From: Acidobacteriota bacterium
GTDB lineage: Bacteria; Acidobacteriota; Holophagae; Thermotomaculales; Thermotomaculaceae
DNA: 41,512 bases
NCBI GenBank assembly: GCA_013152385.1
Contig: JAADGL010000019.1
Coordinates: forward strand, 1-41,512
Reading direction: 5' to 3'
Made by a program: the position numbers and the translations under genes. The notes under the pieces were generated by a model. The model saw only the letters and a list, made by a program, of their open reading frames with translations, was not told the DNA's origin and searched no databases. This document shows, piece by piece, positions 13,192 to 19,454 of the stretch. Within the stretch, counting starts at the first letter, position 1. Every line of letters starts with the position of its first letter.

Positions 13192-14298
13192 ATGCAGGAA
13201 AATCAGATTCGAAATAGATACCAAAGCACAAACGGCCGAATTGACCGGGTTGTCCGGTTTATAATCAGGTTACTGATAAGCCTGACAGTCCTTTATTCCG
13301 GAACATTCTTCTTCTTTTATGTCGTATGTGAACAAATATTACATCTCAATATGGATTCCGGCCATCAACTCGAAAGTTTCATTACAATTTCTATTCTTCT
13401 ACTTTTTCTCTGGGTTGTAATTGAATTTCTATTCAATCAATGCTCTCATTTCCTCTGGTTGCCTGTGTTTTTTCTCATTGGAATCACCCTGTACACATTT
13501 TCATGGATACCGGTCAGTTATAATGCCCATCTTCTGAATTTCTCATACCCCCGCTGGAGCGACCCTTTTGTATTTTTAAGGAAAGGAATCGGATCGGGAA
13601 TTCCCCCATGTCTCCTGCTGGCAGCTATGCTGATTCGGATACGAAAAACCTATCCTTTTCGAAAGCGAAAATTGCTCTTTCGTTCTATTCTGTCCATCGT
13701 TATTATTGCCGCCTTCTTCCCCATGCTCTCCCGCCTGGGAATCGTCTATTTCTACCGCGTAACATTAAAACCCAAAACCCGCACCATGGTTCAATTGATC
13801 AACGACCTGAAAGATCCGGAATTCGGATTCGGAACCGGCAACACTGTCCTTCTCTATCCATATAGTTATTCCGACAAGCTGGGAAAATTACTGATACCAT
13901 ATGAATTTTCTTATATTAAAAAGATGGGGAAAAAAACCGGTTTTGAACTAACAACCATGGAATGCCTTTATCTCTACGCACAAACAAGCCCTTTACCTGT
14001 ATCATGGGATAAAATTAAACTTCGCAATATAGAATTTATTGAGTCCCGGTTTACGGATCAAGACGAAGACAAATTCGGAGGATTACGGAATTACTGGGCA
14101 GCAAGATGGGAACGTTACGGCCACCGCGACTTTGTCTACATCAGCAAACCCCTGTTTTCACGAAACTGCAAATGGGCAATTATGACTATTTCCCGAAATT
14201 GTGGCAGCCTCTGCGAATATACTTATTGCCTGTTTCTGCATCTGGATGCCGATGGCATCTGGCGGGTCAGGATAAAAAAACTTACTTCCATGAGTTGA
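13192..14298 (+). CDS. Unknown polytopic membrane protein
   Basis: I do not recognise this 368-residue protein. Its first half has four or five hydrophobic helices (about residues 22-45, 63-82, 88-108, 135-152 and 163-185); the second half (about 190-368) appears soluble, with a cysteine-containing segment SRNCGSLCEYTYCLF and an ending WRVRIKKL. No ribosome site precedes the ATG at 13192. TATAAT occurs at 13145-13150, but the -35 region is poor. The gene is clearly more AT-rich than its neighbours, as is the convergent gene downstream. The two may have arrived together. Confidence 0.65.
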   Translation: MQENQIRNRYQSTNGRIDRVVRFIIRLLISLTVLYSGTFFFFYVVCEQILHLNMDSGHQLESFITISILLLFLWVVIEFLFNQCSHFLWLPVFFLIGITLYTFSWIPVSYNAHLLNFSYPRWSDPFVFLRKGIGSGIPPCLLLAAMLIRIRKTYPFRKRKLLFRSILSIVIIAAFFPMLSRLGIVYFYRVTLKPKTRTMVQLINDLKDPEFGFGTGNTVLLYPYSYSDKLGKLLIPYEFSYIKKMGKKTGFELTTMECLYLYAQTSPLPVSWDKIKLRNIEFIESRFTDQDEDKFGGLRNYWAARWERYGHRDFVYISKPLFSRNCKWAIMTISRNCGSLCEYTYCLFLHLDADGIWRVRIKKLTSMS

Positions 14299-14453
14299 AC
14301 CAGATCAGCATACACCGAAATCCACATTGATATGATAACTACACTACACACGATAAAGACAGGAACAGAGTGAAAAGAAAGTGCATCCAAATCTTCAACA
14401 GAAAGCGAAATAACCGATGCAACGCACAAAGCACCTGTTCCGGATTTTGAAAC

Positions 14454-15128
14454 TCAATTATCTGTCCTTTTTTTAACAAAATATTGTCCGCTGTAATCGG
14501 CCTGGTAAACAACAAGATGAAAGTGCCGGGACAAATATCCAATGACCATCAGGTCATACCTGATAGAATCATTTGCATGTCCCATCAATGCCTCTTTCAT
14601 TTGCCAATAGCGTCCTTTATCCACAAAGTACCTGCCAAGAAACTCTCTTAAAAGCAATTTATTATTCCCCTTCGCGAAAGTCTCATAGTCAGACCATGCA
14701 ATTAATTCACTGGAAAATCGATCTAACTTCTCTTCAGGCAGAACAACACTAAGCCCGTCTTCAGCAGACTCATCCATCTTCATGGCCCAGTAAAGGACAG
14801 TAATATTCCAATTACCATGTTTACCTGGACAGTCCGCCATCGAAATAAATGAAGCTACCCCCGTAACCAATAAAAAGTTTGTACCGTCTACTGTTTTTAC
14901 TTTGAGAACATATTGAGGAGATGTCATACTCGCTGAATTTTCAACCAATTCATTCAGCCAGGACGTTTGAAACTGTGGCTTCTTGGCACAACGTTGAAGC
15001 TCTGCCCGCTGTTTTCTTAATTTCTCTGTTTGCTTCTTCAAATCAGCACAATGCCTGACAAAAACAACAGTTATAATTAAAAAAATAAGTGGTACTGTGA
15101 AATTAAAAAAATTTTTCATCGGTTCCAT
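14454..15128 (-). CDS. Unknown single-pass membrane protein
   Basis: The product of about 224 residues has one N-terminal hydrophobic segment (FFNFTVPLIFLIITVVFV), then a charged coiled-coil stretch (DLKKQTEKLRKQRAELQR), then a domain of unknown type that contains FLLVTGVASFISM and ends YQADYSGQYFVKKR. The frame opens upstream at 15185, but the membrane segment fits a start at 15128 or 15119; neither has a strong ribosome site. It is convergent with the preceding unknown membrane protein and AT-richer than the flanking operons. A role in the cell envelope is possible but not shown. Confidence 0.6.
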   Translation of the reverse strand: MEPMKNFFNFTVPLIFLIITVVFVRHCADLKKQTEKLRKQRAELQRCAKKPQFQTSWLNELVENSASMTSPQYVLKVKTVDGTNFLLVTGVASFISMADCPGKHGNWNITVLYWAMKMDESAEDGLSVVLPEEKLDRFSSELIAWSDYETFAKGNNKLLLREFLGRYFVDKGRYWQMKEALMGHANDSIRYDLMVIGYLSRHFHLVVYQADYSGQYFVKKRTDN

Positions 15129-15222
15129 CTCTTGAAAATTTTTTCTTACGATCCCGAAAATATCATACCAAACGTTGCACAGCATTTTCCAACACCAGCA
15201 CTTCCACCCGCGCTATGCAGGG

Positions 15223-15250
15223 TTGACATTGGCGGGGACTGTGATATGCT
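15223..15250 (+). promoter_or_regulatory. Promoter of the Phe/Tyr operon
   Basis: A consensus TTGACA (15223-15228) and TATGCT (15245-15250) are separated by 16 bases. The predicted transcription start, about seven bases after the -10 box, falls at 15256-15258, practically on the ATG of the leader peptide. Confidence 0.8.
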
Positions 15251-15257
15251 TTCGACT

Positions 15258-15323
15258 ATGAAGAGGGTGAACAGTACATTCGGCGGACAGTTTTACTTTT
15301 ATTTTTTCTATTTTAACAGCTAG
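15258..15323 (+). CDS. Phe/Tyr attenuator leader peptide
   Basis: A 21-codon frame (M-K-R-V-N-S-T-F-G-G-Q...) ends in TAG and carries FYFYFFYF at residues 12-19, six Phe and three Tyr in total. Such a run between a promoter and terminators in front of a Phe/Tyr biosynthetic operon is the signature of ribosome-mediated attenuation, as with E. coli pheL. Ribosomes starved of Phe- or Tyr-tRNA would stall over 15291-15314. The flanking strings CGGCGGACAG (15281-15290) and CTGTCGCCG (15325-15333) pair over nine positions with one bulge, giving the expected 1:2 hairpin around the control codons. There is no Shine-Dalgarno and no room for one after the predicted start, so translation may be leaderless. 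The frame is open further upstream, but that part lies before the promoter. Confidence 0.85.
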   Translation: MKRVNSTFGGQFYFYFFYFNS

Positions 15324-15369
15324 GCTGTCGCCGTAACGATAAGGTTTTCGGACCGTGCGGTGATCAGCC
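15323..15369 (+). promoter_or_regulatory. Candidate antiterminator pairing
   Basis: GGCTG (15323-15327) can pair with CAGCC (15365-15369), and CCG (15331-15333) with CGG (15358-15360). This structure uses the region-2 bases that otherwise pair with region 1, and it takes parts of both arms of the first terminator, so the two states exclude each other. The helix is short and interrupted; it is an inference that needs a folding calculation. Confidence 0.4.
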
Positions 15370-15384
15370 GCACGGTCCTTTTTT
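15350..15384 (+). terminator. Attenuator terminator 1
   Basis: A perfect 11-bp stem (GGACCGTGCGG 15350-15360 with CCGCACGGTCC 15368-15378) with a 7-base loop is followed by six T residues. It begins 27 bases after the leader peptide stop and precedes aroF, so it acts inside the leader rather than at the end of a gene. Confidence 0.9.
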
Positions 15385-15390
15385 ATGTTG

Positions 15391-15420
15391 GGGCCGTGAA
15401 TTTTATTCACGGCCCTTTTT
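15391..15420 (+). terminator. Attenuator terminator 2
   Basis: A second perfect stem of 10 bp (GGGCCGTGAA 15391-15400 with TTCACGGCCC 15406-15415), with loop TTTTA and a TTTTT tail, follows directly. It ends about 22 bases before the aroF start, just ahead of the ribosome site AAGGAGG. Its 5' arm can also pair with the 3' arm of terminator 1. Confidence 0.85.
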
Positions 15421-15441
15421 GTATGAAGGAGGTTTGATAAA

Positions 15442-16332
15442 ATGAATCATCTGAAGCTGGCAGGCCGAAAAGAGGGAAAACGAACGGTAATTCCGGTGGG
15501 AAATACCCGCATCGGAAAACAGCTGACAGTGATTGCCGGGCCATGCAGTGTCGAAAGCGAGAAGCAGACACTGACAATCGCGCGGGCGGTAAAGCAGGCC
15601 GGCGCCGGGCTTCTGAGAGGCGGCGCGTTCAAACCCAGAACCTCCCCTTACTCTTTTCAGGGCCTGGGGCTGAAAGGGCTGAAAATTCTGGCAAAGGCAA
15701 GGGCGGAAACCGGTTTGCCGGTGATTACCGAAGTGCTGGATACCCGGGATGTGGGCTGGGTCAGTGAGTATGCCGACGTACTGCAGGTGGGGGCTCGGAA
15801 TATGCAGAATTTTTCACTTCTGAAAGAAATCGGAAAGGCGGGGAAACCGGTGATGCTGAAACGGGGAATGTTCGCGACATATGCCGAATGGCTCAACTGC
15901 GCCGAATATATTCTGGACGCGGGAAACCCGGATGTCATTCTCTGCGAACGGGGAATCCGGACTTTTGAACCCTGGACCCGGAACACGCTGGATTTGAGCG
16001 CGGTACCTGCAATGAAAGAGTTGTCGCACCTCCCGGTTTTTGTGGATCCGACCCACGGAACCGGACGGGTGGAGTTGATTCAACCTATGGCAATGGCAGC
16101 GGTTGCAGCCGGAGCGGATGGATTGATGGTAGAGGTTCACCATGACCCGGAACACGCTATGAGTGACGGCCCGCAGGCATTGCTTCCTGAACAGTTTGAA
16201 TCTTTGATGGAGAAAATCAAATGCCTGCAAGCGGCATTGGAGAAATCTTTTCTCAAAAGCGGGATTCCTGCCGAAAGGGATGTTCCGACGCCTGCCGGAG
16301 AAAACGGAAAAGTGAGGGAATATGCCTGGTAA
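15442..16332 (+). CDS. aroF: DAHP synthase, type I-beta
   Basis: The 296-residue enzyme condenses phosphoenolpyruvate and erythrose 4-phosphate to DAHP, the first step of the shikimate pathway. Motifs: [25 protein letters not shown] (PEP and metal binding), [32 protein letters not shown] and [11 protein letters not shown]. It lacks an N-terminal ACT or chorismate mutase extension, so allosteric feedback of the usual fused type is not apparent; control would come from the attenuator. AAGGAGG stands eight bases before the ATG. It is the first structural gene and overlaps aroA by 11 bases. Confidence 0.95.
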
Positions 16333-17575
16333 CGTTTTCCCCGGGCCGGTTTCAGGCACAGTTTCCGCCCCTGCATCCAAATCCTTCATGCAGCGGGCCG
16401 TAGCCTGCGCGCTGCTTTCCGATTGTGAAACAGAGATTCAGAACCCGGCACTTTCCGCCGACGGAAAAACAGCGCTGAGGCTGGCCGGGGAACTGGGGGC
16501 GGCGGTGGGGTTTAAAGGGAAACATGTTGTAATCCGGCCCGGTGCCCGGCCTGCCGACTGTCAACTCAACGCAGGGGAATCCGGACTCTCCCTGCGGATG
16601 TTCACACCCATCGCGGCAAAATTCCCGTTCCCGATAAATATTTCAGCAGCAGGGAGCCTCCGGCGCCGCCCGGTGGAGATGATGGAAGCCCCCCTTCTCC
16701 GCCTCGGAGTCCGGTTTGTTTCAGCCGGCGGATACCCGCCGGTTCAAGTCCGCGGGCCGCTGCAAAGCGGCCGGGTGGAACTGGATGCTTCACTGACATC
16801 CCAGTTTCTGAGCGGATTGCTTGTTGCGCTTCCTGGCTGTAACGGCGACAGTGAAATCCTGGTTTCCGGGCTGACAAGCCGGCCTTATGTGGAAATGACA
16901 CTTTCGGTACTGGCTTCTTTCGGTGTTCACTGGGAGAAAGACGAAGGAAACCAGATTGTATTCCGGTGCAGCGGAGGCCAGCGGTTTCACTGCCCTGAAT
17001 TCACCGTTCCCGGCGACTGGTCCGGAGCGGCCGGGATACTGACGGCAGGCGCAGTTGCCGGTTCCGTCACCGTAACCGGGCTGCCGCAGGACAAATTACA
17101 GGCTGACCGGACAATTCTGGAAATACTGGAACAGGCCGGAGCCAGGGTCTCTGTTTCCGGGGAATCCGTGACTGTTTCAAAAAACCGGCTGAATGCTTTT
17201 CGGACAGATGTAACCCACTGCCCTGACCTTGTACCGGTGCTGACGGCACTGGCGATTCAATGCCGGGGGGAAAGCACTGTCACCGGCACGAAGCGGCTGA
17301 AATTCAAGGAGAGCGACCGGGCCGTGGTGCTGCACCGGGAATTAAAACGCCTTGGCGCGGAAATAACACTTGAAGAAGACTGTATGAGAATAAGGGGCGG
17401 ACAGCTCCGCAGCGGGCGGGTTTCCGCTTCCGGCGACCATCGAATCGCGATGGCGCTGGCTGTCTCGGCACTGAACGCGGACGGGCCGGTCGAAATCGGT
17501 AATACAGAATGTGTGGATAAGTCTTATCCCGCATTTTTTAAAGATTTAACTCAAATCGGCGTTAAAATTCAGTAA
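16322..17575 (+). CDS. aroA: EPSP synthase
   Basis: The 417-residue enzyme transfers the enolpyruvyl group of PEP to shikimate 3-phosphate. Core residues are visible: ASKSFMQRA (Lys-Ser and Arg for substrate), [28 protein letters not shown] and DKSYPAFF. The loop that is LGNAGTAMRPL in E. coli here reads [13 protein letters not shown], a variant that I associate with Bacteroidota-type enzymes. This loop lines the PEP/glyphosate site, so inhibitor sensitivity may differ. The ATG at 16322 overlaps the aroF end and is preceded by GAGGG. Length is normal. Confidence 0.93.
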
Positions 17576-17601: not shown

Positions 17602-18663
17602 ATGGATTTGGAAGAGGTAAGAAGACAGATTGACCGGATTGATTTCGAGGTATTGTCACAATTGAACCGGCGGATGGAACTGGCATTGACATCAAGGAAA
17701 TTCAAAAATAAAGTGCTGGACAAAGAAAGGGAACATGATGTTCTACAAAAGGCAACCGCATATGCGCACGGACAGGTCAGCCCTGAATTCAGCCGGAAAC
17801 TGCTTTCACTCATCATGGAGGAAAGCCGGAGGCTTCAGGAGACAAACCGGCCTCTCCTTGGATTTCAGGGAGAACACGGGGCAAACAGCGAAACAGCGGC
17901 TCTCCGTTTTACTGAAAATGCGGCTATTATTCCCATGGAATCTTTTGCGGATATCTTTGACGGCGTGGAAGCCGGTTATCTTGATTTCGGGATTGTTCCG
18001 GTGGAAAACTCACTGGGGGGAATGGTCAGCCGGGTCAATGAACTGATGGCAACCCGGAACGTTTATGTTGTGGGGGAAGAACTGCTTCCGGTACACCATT
18101 TTCTGCTGGCGCTGCCGGAAACAGACTATCGGGATATCCGGGTAGTGGTCTCCCACCCTCAGGCACTGGCACAGTGCAGGGAATTCCTGACCCGCCACAA
18201 ACTGGAGGGACGGCCATATTACGACACGGCCGGAGCGGCGGAAATGCTGTTTCGGGACCGCCCCGGCGGAACCGCTGTTATTGCCGGAGAATCCTGCGCG
18301 AAACTCTATCATTTGTCTGTAATCAAAGAGCATATCGAAGACCATTCGGACAACATCACCCGTTTTCTGGTAATTTCAGGAAAAGCGTCAAAGGCAGCGG
18401 GAAACAAATGTTCCGTGGTCTTTTCCACCCCCCACAAAGCCGGCGCGCTGTTTGAAATTCTGGAAACCTTTGCCCGGGAAGGCCTTAATCTCACCCGAAT
18501 CGAGTCCGTGCACATGGGAGGACATCCCGGAAACTATGTTTTTTTCCTTGATTTCCTCGGAAGCGACCGGGATGAATCGGTTCGGCAGGTTCTGGAGAAA
18601 GTGAAAGCCAAAACCGGAAATTTCCGCTTCCTCGGCTGTTACAAACGGGGACAGCGTCCATGA
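17602..18663 (+). CDS. pheA: Chorismate mutase-prephenate dehydratase
   Basis: The 353-residue bifunctional enzyme makes phenylpyruvate from chorismate. Residues about 1-85 form an all-helical AroQ mutase (LEEVRRQIDRIDFEVLSQLNRRMEL), about 90-265 the dehydratase (FQGEHGANSETAA, VPVENSLGGMV, ending DHSDNITRFLVI), and about 272-350 an ACT domain. In the ACT domain the GALV element reads GALF and the phenylalanine-binding ESRP reads ESVH, so feedback inhibition may be weakened or altered. A start at ATG 17602 follows a G-rich AGGGGG site. It sits 26 bases after aroA and overlaps tyrA by ATGA. Confidence 0.94.
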   Translation: MDLEEVRRQIDRIDFEVLSQLNRRMELALTSRKFKNKVLDKEREHDVLQKATAYAHGQVSPEFSRKLLSLIMEESRRLQETNRPLLGFQGEHGANSETAALRFTENAAIIPMESFADIFDGVEAGYLDFGIVPVENSLGGMVSRVNELMATRNVYVVGEELLPVHHFLLALPETDYRDIRVVVSHPQALAQCREFLTRHKLEGRPYYDTAGAAEMLFRDRPGGTAVIAGESCAKLYHLSVIKEHIEDHSDNITRFLVISGKASKAAGNKCSVVFSTPHKAGALFEILETFAREGLNLTRIESVHMGGHPGNYVFFLDFLGSDRDESVRQVLEKVKAKTGNFRFLGCYKRGQRP

Positions 18664-19454
18664 AAATCGCGATTCTGGGCTGCGGCCACATGGGAAGCTG
18701 GCTGGCAGAAGAACTGTCGCTTTCTCATTTTGTGGCGGCGATGGACCCCCTTCCCGCCCGGGTGAATGCCGTGGACAAAGTGAACCGTCTGAAAACATTG
18801 GATGAACTGGCTGATTTTAAACCGGAATTGCTGATAAACGCAGTGCCGCTGAAAGAAACCATCCCTGTTTTCAAATCCGTAACCGGGAAATTGCCCAAAA
18901 ACTGTATTTTGTGCGACGTGGCATCCGTAAAAGGAAAATTGCCGCAGTATTACGCCGAATGCGGCCGTCCCTTTGCTTCCGTCCATCCCATGTTCGGCCC
19001 GACGTTTGCCAACATCCGCAGGCTGGAAGAAGAATCCGCCGTCATTATCCGGGAATCCGATTGTGGAACCGCTGATTTTTTCCGGACATTTTTTACCGGA
19101 AAAGGGCTTAAAATTTTTGATTATTCTTTTGACGAACACGATGGAATGATGGCATATTCATTGGCCATGCCTTTTATTTCCACTATGGTTTTCACCGCCT
19201 GCATGGACAAAAACACCGTCCCCGGAACCACCTTCAAAAAACACCGCGAAATCGCAAAGGGGCTTTTGTCGGAAAATGACTATCTTCTGGCGGAAATCCT
19301 TTTCAACCCTCATTCCGCGGTGCAGCTGGAAAAAGTAATCAGCCGGATGGAATTTATGCGCCACATTATCCGGGGCCGGGATTATGAAGAAGCCATAAGA
19401 TTTTTCAACGGACTCCGGGAAAACCTCATGAATTCCGAAACCGGCCCGATGTAA
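18660..19454 (+). CDS. tyrA: Prephenate dehydrogenase
   Basis: The 264-residue enzyme oxidises prephenate to 4-hydroxyphenylpyruvate, the tyrosine branch. Visible are the Rossmann motif GCGHMG at the N-terminus, DVASVKG, SVHPMFGPT and the catalytic-region DEHDGMMAYSLAMPF. There is no C-terminal ACT domain. It overlaps pheA by ATGA and closes the operon, so one transcript supplies both Phe and Tyr branches, which fits a leader peptide with both kinds of codon. No clear terminator follows. Confidence 0.92.
   Translation: MKIAILGCGHMGSWLAEELSLSHFVAAMDPLPARVNAVDKVNRLKTLDELADFKPELLINAVPLKETIPVFKSVTGKLPKNCILCDVASVKGKLPQYYAECGRPFASVHPMFGPTFANIRRLEEESAVIIRESDCGTADFFRTFFTGKGLKIFDYSFDEHDGMMAYSLAMPFISTMVFTACMDKNTVPGTTFKKHREIAKGLLSENDYLLAEILFNPHSAVQLEKVISRMEFMRHIIRGRDYEEAIRFFNGLRENLMNSETGPM

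Follow-up and report, generated by a model that had tools for sequence, protein, structure and literature searches.

Analysis of the window (the whole stretch of DNA under study, 41,512 nucleotides) made it nearly certain, as far as sequence can tell, that a ribosome-mediated Phe/Tyr transcription attenuator lies upstream of the DAHPS-AroA-PheA-TyrA operon. The leader ORF, the operon, two terminators (T1 and T2), the alternative pairings in the leader RNA and their conservation come from sequence and computation. We lean towards an attenuator whose two tandem terminators are coupled through cross-pairing of their arms, and it is likely that the cross-pair has a function. The chances appear about even that the attenuator works as a relay, in which one stall of the ribosome would shift the pairing of the numbered leader strands from 1:2/3:4/5:6 to 2:3/4:5 and the freed arm of T1 would act as the antiterminator of T2.

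The leader peptide and the operon

The promoter-like site, the leader ORF and the genes are arranged as follows:

15223–15250, plus strand, sigma-70-type promoter-like site TTGACA-16-TATGCT (consensus match; putative start region)
15258–15323, plus strand, leader peptide ORF MKRVNSTFGGQFYFYFFYFNS with its stop codon, 21 codons, including FYFYFFYF (ORF translation)
15291–15314, plus strand, Phe/Tyr codon run (TWY ×8), the proposed stall site (codon pattern)
15426–15432, plus strand, Shine-Dalgarno-like AAGGAGG for the DAHP synthase gene (found by eye)
15442–16332, plus strand, DAHP synthase (3-deoxy-7-phosphoheptulonate synthase; NF006421 and TIGR01361 over cut-off)
16322–17575, plus strand, AroA, EPSP synthase (TIGR01356 over cut-off)
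17602–18663, plus strand, PheA-like protein with chorismate mutase, prephenate dehydratase and ACT domains (PF01817, PF00800 and PF01842 over cut-off)
18660–19454, plus strand, TyrA-like prephenate dehydrogenase (PF02153 over cut-off; NCBIfam scores below cut-offs)

The downstream genes (DAHPS, AroA, PheA-like and TyrA-like) serve Phe/Tyr synthesis. The short leader ORF, with its eight consecutive Phe/Tyr codons, is separated from the start codon of the first of them (15442) by the intrinsic terminators T1 and T2. The initial annotation described the terminators with no mention of a leader peptide, and it is the presence of this peptide that makes the two terminators an attenuator candidate.

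No match was found in the window genome (G000) for ilvB over the cut-off or for hisG and trpE at E ≤ 0.001; in the family, ilvB was over the cut-off in none of nine genomes and hisG matched at E ≤ 0.001 in none of nine. Since ilvB, hisG and trpE are unmatched in the window genome, the operon is probably for Phe and Tyr only, its likely end products being the same two amino acids as in the leader. The apparent absence of ilvB and hisG from the family also makes them unusable as further attenuators for comparison. Several amino-acid auxotrophies with Phe/Tyr synthesis kept are suggested for G000, a genome rated 99% complete. The same genome has a second DAHPS paralogue (L002, at G000:C66), and the TGA reported within this match, close to its C-terminal end, is probably its natural stop.

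A promoter-like site was found close to and 5' of the leader ATG in all seven complete leaders. In the window (15223–15260) the gap to the ATG is 7 bases, and the spacing is similar in the relatives; the 5' untranslated region may therefore be close to nil, with the peptide possibly made from an almost leaderless transcript. The neighbouring ORFs at 14454–15185 (minus strand) and 13192–14298 (plus strand), of 243 and 368 amino acids, had no Pfam/NCBIfam match at E ≤ 0.001.

The order was sampled with nine genomes from two genera, seven of them with a complete leader. The F/Y peptide, strands 1 and 2 (listed below), T1, T2 and the start codon follow each other in the same arrangement in these 7/9 genomes. 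G002 has the same tandem terminators on a contig that starts inside T1, and no close DAHPS orthologue was found in G004. Leader peptides of the same length in relatives end with GRQFYFYYFYFNR, GRQYFYFYYFYFK and similar sequences. The F/Y run is present in all seven, interrupted by one Trp in G005 and by Leu near the end in G001, and the terminal run is always preceded by G-(R/G)-Q, the codons of which form strand 1. A Trp codon inside the run occurs in one leader, that of G005 (L009; FYFWFYFYF), and this genome also has the family's highest-scoring trpE match (378.5 bits, under the cut-off); the coincidence, as a single case, is suggestive only.

The leader was also sought outside the order. 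In a phylum-wide sample of 396 genomes its covariance model found five members of the order and gave no match at E ≤ 0.1 in 389. Two weak matches outside the order were rejected as relatives: in G189 tandem terminators stood behind a thioredoxin-like gene, and in G321 no terminator pair was seen. A TWY ×7 pattern matched in 22 of 93 genomes. The window's genus, with four genomes, contributed nine overlapping matches, every one of them within this leader; 13 sites chosen from the remaining matches and read were not such leaders, and on these readings F/Y leaders of this kind elsewhere in the class were rejected.

Terminators and alternative pairings

The RNA elements considered below are:

15282–15290, plus strand, strand 1 (GGCGGACAG), partner of strand 2 in the 1:2 hairpin (fold)
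15323–15333, plus strand, strand 2 (GGCTGTCGCCG), which pairs with strand 1 or, as the antiterminator, with the T1 apex (fold)
15350–15378, plus strand, T1 hairpin GGACCGTGCGGTGATCAGCCGCACGGTCC, −24.7 kcal/mol, followed by T6 at 15379–15384 (terminator search, fold)
15358–15369, plus strand, strand 3, the T1 apex (CGGTGATCAGCC), target of the antiterminator (fold)
15371–15379, plus strand, strand 4, the T1 outer 3' arm (CACGGTCC + U15379), released once 2:3 forms
15390–15416, plus strand, T2 hairpin GGGGCCGTGAATTTTATTCACGGCCCT, −20.1 kcal/mol, with the U-tract at 15416–15420 (terminator search, fold)
15390–15398, plus strand, strand 5, the T2 outer 5' arm (GGGGCCGTG), which pairs with strand 4 (fold)

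T1 and T2 were the sole plus-strand terminator-like sites within 14000–17000, and their perfect 11-nt arms were the sole inverted repeats reported in 15250–15441. The two hairpins are spaced by 9–13 nt in the leaders, with energies of −22.7 to −26.8 kcal/mol for T1 and −17.2 to −20.1 kcal/mol for T2 across the seven. In 638 kb of the window genome, with 77 terminators, no tandem pair other than that of the aro leader is spaced by less than 60 nt, and the same holds for 74 terminators in 800 kb of the second genus. We rejected T1/T2 as the 3' ends of a convergent gene, since the neighbouring minus-strand ORF 14454–15185 points away from the leader and no terminator-like site of that strand overlaps T1/T2.

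Tandem terminators with cross-complementary arms and one G-U pair had been proposed in the initial annotation, and this was confirmed: CACGGTCC (15371–15378) pairs with GGGCCGTG (15391–15398) through eight pairs, including one U-G, with U15379-G15390 as a possible ninth pair of the cross-stem in the window. The 4:5 hairpin has −15.1 kcal/mol in the window and −11.8 to −19.0 kcal/mol across the seven leaders.

The antiterminator differs from the one first supposed. In that proposal it would take up the 5' arm of T1; instead strand 2, which starts at the leader stop codon, pairs with the apex at 15358–15369 and leaves free the outer 3' arm, i.e., the part of T1 that matches T2. The start of 4:5 adjoins the end of 2:3. 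The computed energies of the antiterminator were −22.0 kcal/mol in the window and −17.7 to −25.1 kcal/mol across the seven leaders, and those of the 1:2 hairpin −15.3 and −12.9 to −18.7 kcal/mol, respectively. The 2:3 pairing was stronger than in the controls with shuffled strand 2 in all seven leaders (p from 0/2000 shuffles to 0.027). In the computed folds the antiterminator excludes T1 and has 1:2 as its competing hairpin. The barrier from 2:3+4:5 to T1+T2 was computed as 18–25 kcal/mol, a climb that would keep T1 blocked for as long as matters.

From these pairings we infer how stalling, masking by the ribosome, the co-transcriptional order of folding and the effect on read-through would combine. 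As long as Phe and Tyr tRNAs are amply charged, the ribosome would reach the leader stop codon and strand 2 would be masked or held in 1:2. T1 (3:4) would form and lock strand 4, T2 (5:6) would fold freely, and the polymerase would face two terminators in series. Under a shortage of Phe or Tyr, it would stall in the F/Y run and cover strand 1; here "it" is the ribosome. Strand 2 would then pair with the T1 apex (2:3), blocking T1 and leaving strand 4 free to pair with the T2 outer 5' arm (4:5) before the 3' arm of T2 emerges. Such a 4:5 helix would compete with the base-proximal pairs of T2, needed while the polymerase sits on the U-tract. The net effect of one stall would be a blocked T1 and a weakened or delayed T2.

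Cross-pairing and its competing explanations

The end bases of the T2 3' arm are still near or inside the polymerase as it reaches the U-tract. With the last 5 nt of T2 not yet out and strand 4 free, the mean computed probability of T2 was 0.04 in the window (0.04–0.48 in the seven leaders), versus 0.93 (0.85–0.94) with strand 4 locked in T1. The 4:5 hairpin predominates until at most three bases of the T2 3' arm are still inside the polymerase; in G005 it predominates even with full-length T2.

The earlier suggestion that a single stall might open both terminators agrees with the leader's anatomy, with the energies and with the comparison of relatives, but it did not hold in full, as the complete T2 was still the better hairpin in six of the seven leaders. 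Its advantage was 5.2 kcal/mol in the window, 7.3 kcal/mol in G001 and 0.3–3.5 kcal/mol in four others. Only in G007 was the order reversed, by 0.5 kcal/mol. When the RNA was folded to minimum energy starting at strand 2, both T1 and T2 were present in all seven leaders. The barrier of the exchange of 4:5 for T2 was only 3.1–7.0 kcal/mol, which at assumed rates corresponds to about 10 microseconds to 0.1 s; because the complete T2 is more stable and this barrier is low, 0.1 s could be enough for T2 to form after all. Given the stability of T2 in 6/7 leaders and the 3–7 kcal/mol barrier, 4:5 looks to us less like a lock than like a competitor by which T2 is lowered or delayed. On these models, the cross-pairing probably weakens or delays T2 instead of abolishing it.

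The thermodynamic advantage of the complete T2 and the fast exchange also favor the best-surviving alternative, which we consider unlikely but worth weighing: an ordinary Phe/Tyr attenuator acts at T1, T2 is a backup that cuts leakage or leaks, and nothing depends on its resemblance to T1. The composition of the terminators in these genomes speaks for it as well. When all ordered terminator pairs were compared using arms plus 5 nt, 254/5850 (4.3%) in the window genome and 590/5400 in G001 cross-paired at least as well, so that random terminators do so in 4–11% of pairs and the GC-rich terminators of these genomes evidently resemble each other. With T2 fixed, as-good partners were found among none of the 75 other terminators of the window genome and none of 72 in G001; with T1 fixed, 1/75 and 1/72 were found. 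For the arms alone, the respective counts were 3/75 and 4/72 (T2 fixed), 0/75 and 1/72 (T1 fixed), and 231/5850 and 466/5400 (all pairs).

Shuffling of the T2 stem argued against a backup. With 4000 shuffles per leader and the orientation kept, the p values were 0.0030 (G000), 0.0005 (G008), 0.0003 (G007), 0.0145 (G006), 0.0173 (G001), 0.0008 (G003) and 0.0000 (G005); a second test with 300 shuffles gave p ≤ 0.02 in all seven leaders. Among 61 other neighbouring terminator-like pairs in 2.4 Mb, most of them weaker hairpins than T1 and T2, four reached p ≤ 0.05 and two p ≤ 0.02, which is near chance; in only five of these controls do both hairpins have −12 kcal/mol or less, and none of the five reached 0.05. 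The tandem pair at L243, which is not an attenuator, also has a duplex of −14.2 kcal/mol, yet its T2-shuffle p was 0.44.

Other DAHPS loci favor the backup. A short F/Y-rich ORF, by our own criterion, was found upstream in 14 of 81 other DAHPS loci. One of them, L028, is exactly the locus of G005 and was excluded from the leader counts. Thirteen of the 14 regions were read by eye and, L028 aside, none of the remaining 12 loci showed more than one strong terminator ahead of the gene, which implies that one terminator suffices elsewhere. On the other side, a strong T2 left uncoupled would be expected to cap the induced expression, and the cross-stem is conserved in all seven leaders with paired changes.

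This conservation was scored on an alignment of seven sequences, without the partial leader of G002. The 4:5 helix was paired in 56/56 alignment cells with changes on both sides in 4/8 pairs, and slid controls were paired in 25–42%. The T1 and T2 pairs themselves were intact in 147/147 cells, with 10/21 pairs changed on both sides, so the 4:5 helix is as well supported as the terminators. The compensatory changes sought in relatives were thus present and were not confined to two separate hairpins. Most double changes fall on the single split between the two genera. The arms of the second genus differ (T1 AGCCGCAGG...CCTGCGGCT, T2 AAAGCCGCGAAACC...), and the pairing of the T1 3' arm with the T2 5' arm is preserved there as GCGGCTTT with AAAGCCGC.

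Similarity of the arms had been taken to suggest a duplication. If T2 were a copy of T1, or both followed a common terminator pattern, the complementarity would be a by-product of arm similarity; we regard this as improbable, more so than a backup. T1 and T2 do resemble each other in their outer arms, and the 5' arm of T1 mostly keeps its reverse pairing with the 3' arm of T2, as plain arm similarity would give: 52/56 cells are paired, and 4/8 pairs have double-sided changes. By a loose finder that kept 25 terminators per genome, the A-tract/U-tract part found in the second genus is common to terminators there. Against a copy, T1 and T2 are alike only in the outer arms in both genera, their inner stems and loops being different, and the free arm begins where the antiterminator ends. 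In three relatives (G006, G007 and G008), the cross-stem also continues for two or three pairs beyond the limits of both terminators, and these pairs are part of the cross-pair alone. The forward pairing was better kept than the reverse one. Since none of the four arms can change independently of the others, only this excess (56 vs. 52) speaks for function; the advantage is small, and a firm test would take more than two lineages.

Separate control of T2, e.g., by a translation-coupled polymerase or a protein, would let the leader integrate two signals, as two serial terminators would permit and a protein would be compatible with the data, but we find it very improbable given that merely 9–13 nt separate T1 and T2, that no other inverted repeat was reported in the leader and that the window had no match at gathering score to any of 4227 Rfam families (T-box, riboswitch or known leader).

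Related systems and implications

Attenuators of the E. coli trp, pheA and his type have a leader peptide with many residues of the regulatory amino acids, a pause hairpin 1:2, an antiterminator 2:3 and an intrinsic terminator before the first gene. The leader peptide, 1:2, 2:3 and a terminator are all present here; by sequence and computed folds, this leader shows those hallmarks of ribosome-mediated amino-acid attenuation that can be tested in this way. Unlike in that type, there is a second terminator whose 5' arm pairs with the arm freed by the antiterminator, and strand 3 is the T1 apex, not the whole 5' arm.

Two terminators behind one leader peptide have a precedent in ermK of Bacillus licheniformis, described in the part of the source available as an attenuator with two adjacent Rho-independent terminators (PMC4335068); the comparison concerns the number of terminators alone. 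Both systems are leader-peptide attenuators with two adjacent intrinsic terminators downstream of the leader ORF. They differ in that ermK has a macrolide-stalled peptide and a methylase gene, and the present leader a Phe/Tyr run and aro genes. No antibiotic-stalled leader before a resistance gene is present here, so the aro leader may work like ermK without being a member of that class. Tandem terminators, the upstream one with a potential antiterminator, also occur in the rimP-leader of some Gammaproteobacteria, which the accessible portion of the source does not present as a leader-peptide attenuator or as cross-pairing (PMC2965389).

Candidate Phe/Tyr leaders of Clostridia and others (L059, L060 and L071 of Oscillibacter, and L030, L078, L079 and L092) share the order of F/Y-rich short ORF, terminator and DAHPS gene, but differ in having one strong terminator, and no tandem pair, in the loci read. 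Among them, L059, L060, L071 and L079 have a second conserved type of Phe/Tyr leader, AEYRYFSFTYFFGKAYFGLA..., before DAHPS genes and with one terminator.

A literature search, with subscription papers mostly outside its scope, returned no account of cross-pairing tandem terminators in a leader-peptide attenuator. The type of switch is known, and the coupling of the two stops looks new, as far as the available part of the ermK source goes, in which the terminator count alone was compared.

With tandem terminators, relieving the first one is useless if the second still halts the polymerase. If the cross-pair works as proposed, no extra factor would be needed, as the freed arm of T1 would be reused, and attenuators could follow a design rule that combines low leakage with full induction. 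Two terminators would then give a tight shut-off while both are induced by one signal, and the Phe/Tyr operon of a little-studied bacterial order would show such a relay.
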